Source: an uncultured Flavobacteriaceae bacterium
GTDB taxonomy: Bacteria > Bacteroidota > Bacteroidia > Flavobacteriales > Flavobacteriaceae
Length of the DNA: 63,902 bases
Assembly: GCA_947500445.1 (NCBI GenBank)
Contig: CANMSB010000030.1
Coordinates: 1 to 63,902 of the forward strand
Reading direction: 5' to 3'
The position numbers and the translations under genes are program-made. The stretch's first letter is position 1. Each line of letters opens with the position of its first letter. The notes under the pieces are model-generated. The model made no database searches and was not told the origin of the DNA. It saw only the letters and a list, made by a program, of their open reading frames with translations. Positions 197 to 61,970 of the stretch are shown piece after piece.

Positions 197-306
197 TTAG
201 GTGGCCATGGCAACGGGGCCCACCCCTTACCATTCCGAACAGGGAAGTTAAGCCCGTTAGCGCCGATGGTACTGCTATACCAAGTGGGAGAGTAGGTCGC
301 CGCCTT
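197..306 (+). rRNA. rrf: 5S rRNA
   Basis: This is a complete 5S rRNA of about 110 nt. It shows the conserved core CCGAACAGGGAAGTTAAGCC, the loop region GATGGTACTGC, and matching 5' and 3' ends that form the closing stem (TTAGGTGG... with ...CGCCTTA). It is the last gene of the rRNA operon and is followed at once by a strong terminator. The ends are placed by comparison with the family and may be off by a few bases. Confidence 0.95.
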
Positions 307-314
307 ACTTCGAA

Positions 315-17478: not shown

Positions 17479-17493
17479 AATTACAAACCGCTA

Positions 17494-17654
17494 ATACTAT
17501 TTCTACCTTGAAATTACCCATTAAAAATTGCCCTTTTCCGCTTATACTTCAAAATAAAAAACAACCGTAGCTACTGCTATGCTTGCTTTTTCTTTTTCGT
17601 CCAAGCAAAAAATGACTGCTTTTTATTTGGGTAATTTCAAAGCAAAAATGGTAT
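17494..17654. repeat. Dispersed intergenic repeat, copy A (MITE-like)
   Basis: This 161-bp element fills most of the gap between two genes. The ends form a 27-bp imperfect inverted repeat (17494-17520 and 17628-17654, 23 of 27 positions paired). Its inner 13 bp are perfect (TTGAAATTACCCA / TGGGTAATTTCAA) and its outer part reads ATAC-Y-ATTT. The middle holds CGTAGCTACTGCTATGC, the same core hairpin as copies B and C. It encodes nothing. Confidence 0.8.
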
Positions 17655-17684
17655 AAAGCACTAAGGGATTTGTTTAACCTGTGG

Positions 17685-23462: not shown

Positions 23463-23638
23463 AGTTACTGCCCACATTGGTACTATCTTTTGACAAACTC
23501 AACGTTAATTAAGTTTAAAAAGGGTGAGTTTAGGTCGTAAAAGCAAGCCTTGCATGTACAAGGATCCTTGATCGGTCTGTTAGCCCTAAACCTGTTCATA
23601 GGAGTTTGTACAAAACTTCTCCAATGTGGGTTTTTTTA
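23463..23638 (+). ncRNA. ssrS: Candidate 6S-type RNA (6S-Flavo-like)
   Basis: The region between zapA and rny folds as one long interrupted hairpin. The closing 10-bp stem is perfect (CCCACATTGG at 23471-23480 with CCAATGTGGG at 23621-23630), and seven T follow. Inside, GTTTAGG near 23527 can pair with CCTAAAC near 23585, and an apical hairpin is formed by CCTTG-CATGTA-CAAGG near 23549. A closing stem, an internal bubble and an apical arm with a built-in terminator are the plan of 6S RNA, which mimics an open promoter and binds RNA polymerase. No reading frame competes. The 5' end is approximate. Confidence 0.75.
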
Positions 23639-25359: not shown

Positions 25360-25422
25360 GTTTCTATAAGTTTGAGGTTCAATGATCGTATCGGTTTTTT
25401 CGAAAAGGCCGATGAACATTTA

Positions 25423-25510
25423 CTCGATAATCGAGATTTAAAATGCTCCGACGCTTGCGTCGAAATCAATATTAATTTTCGTTCTAATGCCTCATGGGTT
25501 TGCCCCGAGG
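25423..25510. repeat. Row of three short hairpins between rny and ppk1
   Basis: Three separate dyads follow each other: CTCGATAATCGAG (25423-25435), CGACGCTTGCGTCG (25449-25462) and CCTC..GGGTTTGCCC..GAGG (25490-25510). They lie past the rny terminator and before the end of the convergent ppk1 gene. None has a plain T-run. They could be a REP-like structured element or remnants of a mobile sequence. Confidence 0.45.
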
Positions 25511-25519
25511 TTATTTACT

Positions 25520-27583
25520 TTATGGGGTCAAACGATTTTTTAGATACCGGTAAATGGCTAGTTGAGAGCGAACGGCTGTACTGTTCGGGGACGGCTTTTT
25601 GAGGGTATTGGTCCCCTTTGCATCTATTTTACGGGCTTTAACGTTGTCCTTGAATTGTAGTTCCAGAATATCCTTAAGTTCCCGGAAAACCGAATCGTCC
25701 AAAATAGCGGTCAACACCTCAATACGTTTGTCGAGGTTACGGGTCATCCAGTCCGCACTACCGATGAACATTTTTTCGTTTCCGTTATCGTGAAAAAGAA
25801 AAACGCGCGCATGTTCCAAATAGCGGTCTACGATACTGCTAGCCGTTATGTTATCGCTAAGACCCGGAACACCGGGAATCAAACAACAAAACCCCCTAAC
25901 CAAAAGGCGTATCCGAACTCCCGCCTTGCCGGCTTTATAGAGCAGGTCGATCATTCGCTTGTCTTCTAAACTGTTCATTTTAATCGATACCCCTGCTGGC
26001 TTCCCCTGGCGTGCATTGGTAATTTCATTTTGCAACAAAGCTTCAAAACGGGTTCTGGTGGTAAACGGTGAAACGATCAAAGTATCCAGTTGTGGTGCTT
26101 CGATTTCCCGTTTCAATACCGCGAACACCTGCTGCAAATCGGAAGTTACCTTTTCGTCGGCGGTAAAAATACCGTGGTCACAGTACAGCTTTGCCGTTTT
26201 GGCATTAAAGTTCCCGGTACCGATATAGGCATAACGTTTTTCGATTCCAGCTTCTTCGCGTTCGATCAATAAAATTTTGGAGTGTACTTTTACGTTGCGA
26301 AAACTGTAGTGGACATGTCCCCCGTTTTCTTCGAAAATCTTGCCCCATTTCAGATTGTTCCGCTCATCGAAACGGGCCTGGGCCTCTACAAAAACATTGA
26401 CCTCTTTTTTATTGGTCAGGGCGGTCAGCAGGGCGGACGTCAATTGGGAGTCGTTTGCTACCCGGTACAACGAAATAGTTATGGTGCGTACATTTTTATC
26501 CGTTGCCGCTTGGGTCAGCCAGCTTTCCAGATAATCGAAACGTTGATAAGGAAAATGTACAATACGATCTTTATCGGATATCAAATCAAAAAAGGGATCA
26601 CCGTTTTCAAAATCCGGATGTAGGAGTGGAGGCATAGGTGCATCCGATAGGTCCATTTTGGAACCATCCCTGGGAAACGAAAAAAATGCACTGAAATTAT
26701 GATGCTTGCCCCCCGGCACCATATCTATTTTGCCCAACGCTAAAAGTTGTCGTAGTCGTTTTTGAGTTTTTTTTGGCATTCCCGTTTCAAACAATAAACG
26801 GGTAGGTTGACCGTCATTGCGCTGCGCCAACGATTCATAAATCTGCTGTACCCATTCCCCATCGTAATCATCATCCAAATAGAGCGCCGCGTCACGAGAA
26901 ATTTTGATTATATGTTTGCCTACAATTTTTTTATCGGGAAAAAGGGTATGCACATGACGCTTGATAACATCCTCCAAAAATGCATAGGTCACTTGGGTTT
27001 CGGTATGCGAGAGGGTGATAAAACGCGGAAAATCGGCAGTCGGTATTTTTAAAAATCCCAACGTATCGCTTTCCGAAAAAGAGAGCGTAAGATACAGTTG
27101 TCCATCTTCAAAAGTGTCCGTTTCAATGTCGGTGTCATAGGTTACCGATAGTTGCGCGGCCAAATGTTCTTCAAAAAATGCAAAACTTTTGGCGTCGGCA
27201 GCGGCATCGAACGTTTCCGGAAGCAAAAGGGTGATGCCCTCACGATGCATTTCCGGCAGCAGTTCCGTGTAGAACAATCGGCCAAAAAATTCTTGTTGTT
27301 CCTGAACGTTCTTTAAAATCTCTTTCAGTAGTTTGTTCGGTTTAAGGGCCAAGGGTTTTCGAATGGCTTTTTTCACCTTTCGTATTTGTCGTAATTTGGA
27401 TACACGCACCTTAAAAAATTCATCAAGATTGGAAGAAAAAATAGCCAAGAACTTTAATCGTTCGTACAGGGGATTGCTGTTGTCGGCAGCTTCCTGTAAT
27501 ACCCTGCCGTTGAAATTGATCCAGTCCAGGTCCCGGTTTTTATAAAGATCCTTGTTTTTTTTAGTATTGGTCACGTTTTCCAT
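25520..27583 (-). CDS. ppk1: Polyphosphate kinase 1
   Basis: The 687-residue enzyme makes long-chain polyphosphate from ATP, reversibly. The N-terminal domain opens with RDLDWINFNGRVLQEA. The two phospholipase-D-like catalytic domains follow, with FPYQRFDYLESWLTQAA and the autophosphorylated histidine in NVKVHSKILLIE, then GTGNFNAKTAKLYCD, GFCCLIPGVPGLSDNI and FIGSADWMTRNLD. Length is normal for the family. It is convergent with rny and monocistronic as far as can be seen. Confidence 0.95.
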   Translation of the reverse strand: MENVTNTKKNKDLYKNRDLDWINFNGRVLQEAADNSNPLYERLKFLAIFSSNLDEFFKVRVSKLRQIRKVKKAIRKPLALKPNKLLKEILKNVQEQQEFFGRLFYTELLPEMHREGITLLLPETFDAAADAKSFAFFEEHLAAQLSVTYDTDIETDTFEDGQLYLTLSFSESDTLGFLKIPTADFPRFITLSHTETQVTYAFLEDVIKRHVHTLFPDKKIVGKHIIKISRDAALYLDDDYDGEWVQQIYESLAQRNDGQPTRLLFETGMPKKTQKRLRQLLALGKIDMVPGGKHHNFSAFFSFPRDGSKMDLSDAPMPPLLHPDFENGDPFFDLISDKDRIVHFPYQRFDYLESWLTQAATDKNVRTITISLYRVANDSQLTSALLTALTNKKEVNVFVEAQARFDERNNLKWGKIFEENGGHVHYSFRNVKVHSKILLIEREEAGIEKRYAYIGTGNFNAKTAKLYCDHGIFTADEKVTSDLQQVFAVLKREIEAPQLDTLIVSPFTTRTRFEALLQNEITNARQGKPAGVSIKMNSLEDKRMIDLLYKAGKAGVRIRLLVRGFCCLIPGVPGLSDNITASSIVDRYLEHARVFLFHDNGNEKMFIGSADWMTRNLDKRIEVLTAILDDSVFRELKDILELQFKDNVKARKIDAKGTNTLKKPSPNSTAVRSQLAIYRYLKNRLTP

Positions 27584-27662: not shown

Positions 27663-27817
27663 ATACCAATTACCCGTTAAAATGAGCCAATCTAACTTGT
27701 TCATTTATTTTTCTTGTAAGCGTTTGGCGTAGCTATGGCTATGCAAAACCTTTATGGCCTCGGTAAATGAAAAAGTAACTTCGTTGTTTATGGTTTATTT
27801 TAACGGGTAATTGTAAT
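27663..27817. repeat. Dispersed intergenic repeat, copy B (MITE-like)
   Basis: This element of about 155 bp lies in the gap between ppk1 and a sulfatase gene. Its ends contain a perfect 17-bp inverted repeat (27667-27683 and 27797-27813, CAATTACCCGTTAAAAT and its complement), extended outward by the ATAC start seen in the other copies. The centre holds CGTAGCTATGGCTATGC (27728-27744), the shared core. No coding potential. Confidence 0.8.
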
Positions 27818-44940: not shown

Positions 44941-44966
44941 ATACCATTATAACGTTAAAATGGTAT
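44941..44966. repeat. End-only palindromic remnant of the dispersed repeat
   Basis: A 26-bp near-perfect palindrome (two arms of 13, 12 of 13 paired) made of ATACCATT-W-TAAC and its complement. These are the outer ends of the repeat family joined head to head without the centre. It ends 15 bp before the start codon of a sulfatase gene, so it lies in that gene's leader or promoter. Confidence 0.6.
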
Positions 44967-53492: not shown

Positions 53493-53680
53493 AAGGCGCA
53501 ATTGATTACCGTAAGATACGGATATAAAAATCTTTAAAATTTTAGAAAACTGCAACGCGGATACTGACAAATTCGAATACCAATTTGAAAGGATACGGAT
53601 TTTTACGACGGAAAAATATTCCTATCTTACCTGCGCAACGGAATACTACCAAGGGCTCATTTTAATGGGCAATTGGTGTA

Positions 53681-53866
53681 ATACCATTTTAAATTTGAAA
53701 TAGCACTAATAAATGGTTTCTTTTTCAGGTATTCTTCGTTAAAAAGCCCGTCCCCAGCTTGACTGGGGATAGAACCGTAGCTAAGGCTATGCTTCCATTT
53801 TTTGGCCTTGAATACCCAAAAAATAATTCAATTTCTATACCCACTATTTCAAAGTTAAAATGGTAT
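53681..53866. repeat. Dispersed intergenic repeat, copy C (MITE-like)
   Basis: This 186-bp element has 23-bp terminal inverted repeats that differ at one position (53681-53703 and 53844-53866: ATACCATTTTAA-M-TTTGAAATAG). The centre holds CGTAGCTAAGGCTATGC (53776-53792), and a second hairpin (TCCCCAGCTTGACTGGGGA, about 53751-53769) lies beside it. It fills most of the 399-bp gap between the divergent GH1 and DUF5060 genes. No coding potential. Confidence 0.85.
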
Positions 53867-53891
53867 AAAACTTCCAATCAAACTACTACCA

Positions 53892-61896: not shown

Positions 61897-61970
61897 CGGG
61901 ATGTGGCGCAGTCCGGTAGCGCACTCGGCTGGGGGCCGAGTGGTCGCAGGTTCAAATCCTGTCATCCCGA
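61897..61970 (+). tRNA. tRNA-Pro (anticodon GGG)
   Basis: A 74-nt cloverleaf. Acceptor CGGGATG (61897-61903) pairs with CATCCCG (61963-61969), followed by discriminator A. The anticodon arm CTCGG-CTGGGGG-CCGAG gives anticodon GGG, and the T arm has GCAGG-TTCAAAT-CCTGT. CCA is not encoded. It is the likely integration site of the element whose integrase follows. Confidence 0.95.

Follow-up and report, generated by a model that had tools for sequence, protein, structure and literature searches.

The window, that is, the whole 63,902 nt stretch of DNA analysed here, holds elements of one plan in three intergenic gaps (copies A, B and C; Table 1). We read them, with a probability of about 0.6, as members of a MITE-like superfamily of near-fixed length that is moved in trans by IS5-type transposases and keeps a hairpin on one strand, probably as a transcript. 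That such elements are mobile was established by target duplications, a recent burst of near-identical copies and a nested insertion, and covariation together with pairing exceptions that are G-U and not A-C established that folding on one strand is under selection. The initial annotation had reported three elements with a shared core and offered a MITE or a structured RNA. All three elements were present, the core had three matches in the window and none in 100 shuffles, and both options are supported together, by the evidence for mobility and by covariation with strand asymmetry.

Copies A, B and C come from three different subfamilies and their arms therefore differ strongly. In copy A, the arms at 17494-17520 and 17628-17654 match at 23 of 27 positions, with the inner 13 perfect, exactly as first described. 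The bottom strand of copy A folds at -61.9 kcal/mol and the top strand at -39.8 kcal/mol, and R2, a covariance model with a corrected structure that was applied to the window copies and to IS5-family loci, matches it at 17533-17615 (minus strand) with 84.4 bits. The corresponding values for copy C are -65.6 (bottom) and -56.0 kcal/mol (top), with 42.4 bits for R2. Copy C is longer because it contains a GC-rich hairpin insert, and the REP-like match of this hairpin is on its own not rare, as it was present in 18 of 100 shuffles. Copy B is an exception in that its plus strand folds better (top -57.0, bottom -41.1 kcal/mol); its right end is degenerate and its TSD is not intact (CTA/ATT). R2, which is largely sequence-driven, still matches copy B on the minus strand (56.3 bits). 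No match to Y1, DDE_Tnp_1 or IS5_3 was found on the contig, so for these families the earlier statement that the window lacks a transposase holds.

Table 1. Features of the 63,902 nt window
Feature	Position	Strand	Details
5S rRNA	197-308		
Copy A, left 3-bp TSD	17492-17494		TAA
Copy A	17495-17653	-	159 bp, TACC class, subfamily II; structured strand is minus
Copy A, core	17566-17582	-	reverse complement of CGTAGCTACTGCTATGC, which stands on the structured strand
Copy A, right 3-bp TSD	17654-17656		TAA
6S-Flavo RNA gene	23497-23607		
Copy B	27664-27815	+	152 bp, own subfamily, end TACCAATTACCCG; core 27728-27744
Mini-palindrome	44942-44965		24 bp, TACCATTATAACGTTAAAATGGTA, two ends only
Half-arm	53653-53678		like the end of copy B's subfamily; abuts the copy C TSD
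Copy C, left 3-bp TSD	53679-53681		TAA
Copy C	53682-53865	-	184 bp, TACC class, subfamily I, GC-rich hairpin insert
REP-like GC hairpin	53752-53768		within copy C
Copy C, core	53776-53792	-	
Copy C, right 3-bp TSD	53866-53868		TAA
tRNA	61897-61970		

The window also carries a second dispersed repeat of approximately 100 bp (25419-25521), which has copies at 96-98% in three other places of the same genome and many copies at approximately 68-95% in same-genus genomes, G002, G007, G001, G009, G003 and G008 among them. Inverted ends were sought in this repeat and none was clear.

A lack of further copies would have refuted the family. In the genome from which the window comes (5.18 Mb; the own genome below), CGTAGCTA-n-GCTATGC was found 63 times and the reversed pattern not at all. 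The pattern CRTAGCTANNGCTATGC, in which R replaces G, has 88 exact occurrences against one for its reversed control; with up to two mismatches the core was found 122 times (control 41), and the end TACCATTTYWACYTTRAAAT with up to three mismatches 509 times (control 14). Counting the own genome, CRTAGCTANNGCTATGC is present in 10 of 60 genomes searched and, within the family, in 52 of 397, representing 43 of 237 genera, while the reversed control gave one match each in seven of the 397. When a sample of the phylum was searched with covariance model R1, copies were recovered from at least 8 of 395 genomes, the own genome included. One of these, G575, belongs to another family, listed as the same class, and the five copies analysed from it measure 159-160 bp, each flanked by an exact duplication of TTA or TAA. 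As the R1 structure was misplaced by two columns, the phylum search rests mainly on sequence; 11 candidates per genome were scored and the counts are lower bounds. Neither plasmids and phages, searched with copy C only, nor viral contigs, searched with one exact 20-letter pattern, yielded a match. No element of the window matched Rfam at or above the gathering score and the same was true of five loci, among which the best match overlapping an element was SpF25_sRNA in L005, which scored 28.7 bits where 48 were required and lay on the unstructured strand.

For further analysis we used 80 of the 88 exact-pattern copies of the own genome and 76 copies from relatives. Selection by the exact core means that the invariance of the core in the alignment is built in; core variants do exist, among model matches and in the G208 burst described below (AATAGCTATGGCTATTC). 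The plan is near-constant, approximately 71 nt, a 17-nt core and 72 nt, or 160 bp. Arms of 71 and 72 nt are the commonest in the 80 own and 76 relative copies, and the total is 159-161 bp in 49/80 and 43/76, respectively. An end class could be assigned to 78/80 own and 63/76 relative copies, leaving two own and 13 relative copies unclassed: ends beginning TACC were found in 74 own and 39 relative copies, GAA[C/G]T in 4 and 21, and GAGACTG in none and three. Thus, it is the length and the centre that persist while the ends do not. Even within the own genome there are subfamilies with unrelated ends, namely I (TACCATTTTAACTTTG), II (TACCATTTCTACCTTG), a GAAGTG type, a GAACTC type and that of copy B. 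Other end types round the same core (AGTGTTAAGTTAAG, GAGCTTGTTTAAA, CAAGCATAATCTTACG, GTGTCATGTC and GAACCTGTTTAGG) were seen as single copies (L234, L235, L218, L221, L222 and L087), which suggests more transposase partners. There is no long open reading frame; the longest stop-free run in six frames had a median of 38 and a maximum of 54 codons (109 copies), which is too short for a transposase, though a tiny peptide is not excluded.

The arms of one copy had been said to match each other better than arms of different copies, and this also holds inside both large subfamilies of the own genome. Out of 26 positions, 22.05 match within and 21.75 between copies in subfamily I (42 copies), and 22.04 within and 20.42 between in subfamily II (26 copies), with 0/5000 permutations in each case.

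The GC hairpin insert, allowing four substitutions or fewer, was found in 20/20 own copies of 180-186 bp and in 0/54 of 155-165 bp. This 23-bp GC-rich hairpin (TCCCCGGTCAAGCCGGGGA type) can sit on either side of the core or on both, at mirror positions, which results in lengths of 160, 183 and 206 (for example, in L001, L009, L023, L045 and copy C). Different GC hairpins are present in L025, L069 and L070. The 23-bp hairpin may have arisen by independent insertion or by arm-to-arm copying. Palindromes of 24 bp of the TACCATTTTAACTTTGAAATGGTA kind were found in 34 places in the own genome (exact pattern), often with TWA flanks, and at least five of these places are ends of full copies; the right end of some full copies itself reads as the 24-mer. 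Examples are L103, L105, L111-L113, L118 and the mini-palindrome of the window. They account for some of the 509 matches to the end TACCATTTYWACYTTRAAAT: among 20 fetched arms that lacked a partner, 16 were such end-only mini-palindromes, which are either scars from hairpin deletion across AAAT repeats or the smallest mobile form.

Exact target duplications flank 43/74 own TACC copies, 20/39 TACC copies of relatives, 12/25 GAA copies in all and 2/3 GAGA copies, but these counts are inflated because the script used to set boundaries rewards matching flanks. Within the 3-bp flanks, the left and right middle bases are the same in 63/73 own TACC copies (mean of 2000 shuffles 32.1, highest 44) and in 31/34 from relatives (shuffled mean 14.8, highest 23), and exact 3-bp flanks were found in 9/16 GAA-class relatives (shuffled mean 1.7, highest 6). 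The recent burst in G208, a relative, is free of the boundary bias because its ends are fixed by near-identical copies. Forty loci were fetched and both ends were found in 36, of which 35 have exact TNA duplications (19 TAA, 14 TTA, 1 TCA and 1 TGA). Twenty-six copies are 161 bp long and 97.5-100% identical to the commonest copy, and the burst is a good system for catching transposition. The G208 loci (L348-L387) are of one subfamily, with 65 nearly unchanged arms among the matches listed.

Nested within one copy from G208 (L259) is a second element with the same general form, and the target of this insertion is unoccupied in 6/6 copies checked. The ends of the insert are ambiguous, allowing either a TTAAA or a TAA duplication. 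The inserted 167-bp element (L259:254-420) represents a further class, with ends CCCGCTTTATG and a core-like GCATAGCACGGCTATGG. At L011, where a subfamily I element lies inside a subfamily II element, the case for an empty site is only suggestive. Empty sites were also sought in same-genus genomes, where the order of genes round copies A and B is not kept and no clean ortholog comparison was possible; at the copy A locus one neighbour gene is missing too. As small inverted-repeat units without a transposase that make target duplications and are present in many dispersed copies, the elements meet these four criteria for MITEs; ends shared with an autonomous element that could move them are known for the GAA class only, and we call the elements MITE-like.

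The core hairpin with one G-T pair reported in the initial annotation is present, but that pair belongs to the strand that folds less stably. The initial annotation had written the opposite of the folded strand; a new observation here is that the strand reading GCATAGCNNTAGCTACGG, called the structured strand, is the folded one. In standard-length copies, the structured strand folds better in 53/53 own and 50/51 relative copies, by approximately 15 kcal/mol on average. Length and class filters had left 104/156 copies for this comparison; without them, the structured strand is the better one in 77/80 own and 72/76 relative copies (149/156), and in a fixed 162-nt frame in 74/80 and 73/76, respectively. 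Random windows of the same loci gave 107/223. On average the structured strand is favoured in 33/33 genera, other species of the own genus included. The opposite strand is the more stable one in seven of the 156 copies. In three of them, copy B, L206 and L209, the difference exceeds 10 kcal/mol, and there we infer that the core has perhaps been turned round. In the G208 burst the structured strand is better in 35/35 copies (mean 24 kcal/mol); the strand bias is therefore not only a property of old copies.

Covariation, the absence of which would also have counted against the family, was found across genera. A structure computed from 24 own copies only was applied to 24 TACC elements drawn from 19 other genera, where 80.2% of cells are Watson-Crick pairs compared with 28-42% when the structure was slid, and 44/54 pairs have two-sided changes. 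The exceptions to pairing were 119 G-U, 17 A-C and 120 other, with G-U exceeding A-C in 24/24 loci. When 52 elements (seven own and 45 from other genomes) were compared over their inner 83 columns, 82.4% of cells paired, and covariation was 0.419 compared with 0.161 shuffled and at most 0.244 slid. One of five measures was weaker, with 21 pairs with two-sided change against 18.1 shuffled, a value reached by 10/500. These statistics ignore the shared ancestry of the copies. In the 20-bp ends, the exceptions on the structured strand are again G-T more often than A-C (87 vs 14 in relatives, 82 vs 25 in own copies). The bias is reversed in the core, where the structured strand has an A-C mismatch in 46/52 rows and A-U in six. 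This points to conservation of the tip for its sequence, although the core had also served as the search key. The G-U/A-C asymmetry alone does not prove RNA, because single-stranded DNA, too, accommodates G-T better than A-C. That the selected molecule is RNA from the structured strand is our inference, made without expression data.

Where neighbouring genes, called by simple open reading frames, are in tandem, the structured strand is sense in 59 cases and antisense in 29 (own 30:19, relatives 29:10). In the G208 burst the ratio is 5:5, and 0/36 copies lie inside an open frame. This is consistent with insertions that have no preferred sense, after which copies with a transcribed structured strand survive, but the numbers are small and the gap types differ. 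The bias in orientation may reflect late survival, or chance.

A possible source of the transposase was found for the GAA class. The own genome contains an IS5-type element, L151, that ends in GAACTCATTTAAACTTTTTC and whose left end is apparently cut; its transposase matches IS5_3 (4.1e-24, under the model cut-off) and DDE_Tnp_4. We gathered 31 related IS5-family loci and, leaving out L320, examined the ends of 30 from named records. GAAGTG ends with exact ANT duplications (aat, agt, aat, att, act, att and atc) were found in seven, which include Aquimarina, Pricia, Algibacter and Flagellimonas records; the duplication of L300 was the second-ranked pair. No such pair was found in the remaining 23, of which some are truncated, some have one end only and some have a mismatched duplication. 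IS5 subgroups use ANT and TNA targets (ISfinder). The GAA-class elements share their ends (GAAGTGATTTAAACTTTTT) and 3-bp ANT duplications with these IS5-family elements (NCBIfam transpos_IS5_3; DDE_Tnp_4/DDE_Tnp_1), which differ in being approximately 900-930 bp in the seven clear cases, in encoding a transposase and in lacking the core (0/31 loci with R1, 0/35 with R2). As the IS5 partners of the GAA class do not include the core, the elements are not simple deletion products of them; an origin by internal deletion is frequent among MITEs without being obligatory. Genome G156 has four GAA-end transposase genes above the IS5_3 cut-off and also a 161-bp GAA element (L278) flanked by ATT/ATT. 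From the shared ends, the duplications and this co-occurrence in one genome, we infer that the GAA-class element is moved by an IS5 transposase.

For the TACC class, to which the window copies belong, a transposase is inferred but was not found. A DDE_Tnp_1 profile search of 13 genomes, with 30 loci scanned, returned no TACC end and one GAA end (L151), and no TACC partner was seen in nine loci and two copy groups checked after an IS5_3 search of 24 genomes (25 matches). The G383 group was considered as a TACC partner and rejected, as 5/5 copies have 5-bp duplications. Thus, the search for a transposase with matching ends that the initial annotation had proposed gave a candidate for the GAA class only.

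If our preferred reading is correct, IS5-type DDE transposases would recognise the ends, move the elements in trans and make the 3-bp TNA or ANT duplications, and the ends would have been exchanged, or have wholly diverged, while the core, the 160-bp length and the full-length one-strand hairpin were retained. The selected molecule would be RNA read from the structured strand, a single DNA strand being less likely. The function of the fold can only be inferred. The least certain step is that in most copies the RNA may act in cis, by folding inside any transcript that reads through the element; insertions would then do little harm and the host lineage would survive. An RNA-binding or processing factor may recognise the conserved tip.

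Integron attC sites and IS200/IS605 ends are hairpins of one DNA strand that are used in excision or insertion. The elements could likewise need a hairpin of one DNA strand, exposed for instance in replication, to excise or insert. Consistent with this, the fold spans the whole mobile unit including the ends, G-T outnumbers A-C among the exceptions in the 20-bp ends, and the asymmetry already seen in the recent burst points to the life cycle of the element itself. However, clean 3-bp duplications together with inverted ends are typical of double-strand transposition by DDE enzymes, the GAA class has the ends of IS5 DDE elements, and the five Y1 (HUH) loci of the own genome contain neither the core nor the TIR motifs in the roughly 3 kb of sequence examined. 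We consider a single-stranded DNA element unlikely, though it deserves to be kept in mind. REP/BIME-like repeats moved by a RAYT (TnpA-REP) transposase are far harder to accept. Their appeal is the GTAG tetranucleotide in the core, since GTAG-tagged REPs are described (PMC3733652), and both families are repeated palindromes between genes; but the present elements are much longer (160 bp compared with 20-40 bp), have inverted ends and target duplications, and none of the five Y1 loci adjoins a core or end, leaving no link to a RAYT in the own genome.

The remaining explanations concern the fold. A portable transcription terminator, in which the tip hairpin and a T tract end transcripts between genes, would account for the T tract (on the structured strand, at least 7 T among the 12 nt that follow the core) in 97/113 TACC copies and for the many copies in convergent gaps, such as 18/32 in G208 (four are divergent). 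It is nevertheless improbable, because GAA (5/25) and GAGA (0/3) copies mostly lack the T tract yet keep the core, length and fold, most of the folded length would not be needed, and the wider set has no convergent surplus (27 convergent and 29 divergent of 144). There is slightly less to be said for ordinary MITEs in which the hairpin is a mere by-product of the inverted ends and folding is not selected. Any inverted-repeat element folds, and MITE transcripts in general are said to form stem-loops (PMC10969869). However, pairing runs through the inner 83 columns with covariation far above the shuffled value, and the G-U excess over A-C in 19 genera would be invisible to double-stranded DNA; unless a strand-biased mutation process is demonstrated, the asymmetry itself refutes this explanation.

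Among known systems, the Correia/NEMIS and ERIC elements are prokaryotic MITEs with folding transcripts, and Correia RNA is cut by RNase III (PMC10969869). To that extent they resemble the present family, being small, with inverted ends, many intergenic copies and stem-loop transcripts. The family described here differs in that its fold has been conserved between genera, with compensatory changes and an asymmetry of strands, and in having the same centre and length with unrelated ends. Integron attC sites are similar in that one strand is the folded and functional one, but they are recombined by an integrase and have no target duplication. A superfamily of fixed length that swaps its ends and covaries between genera was not found described in the open-licence literature, to which the search was confined and which it did not cover as full texts.

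A bolder possibility, which we put forward only tentatively, is a modular mobile RNA, in which a conserved 160-nt hairpin RNA gene endures as one lineage throughout a bacterial class by swapping its ends to suit any IS5-type transposase present, the folded transcript is selected and the tip binds a factor of the host or the element. If so, the tip factor would make insertion harmless or aid spread. MITEs are usually seen as by-products of transposases, whereas here the conserved part is the part that the transposase does not recognise, and in many genera it covaries on one strand. The family therefore makes a direct and testable case for selection on the transcript, or on one DNA strand, of a non-autonomous transposon. 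It also provides a natural set of elements with swapped ends from which to learn how elements change transposase partners.
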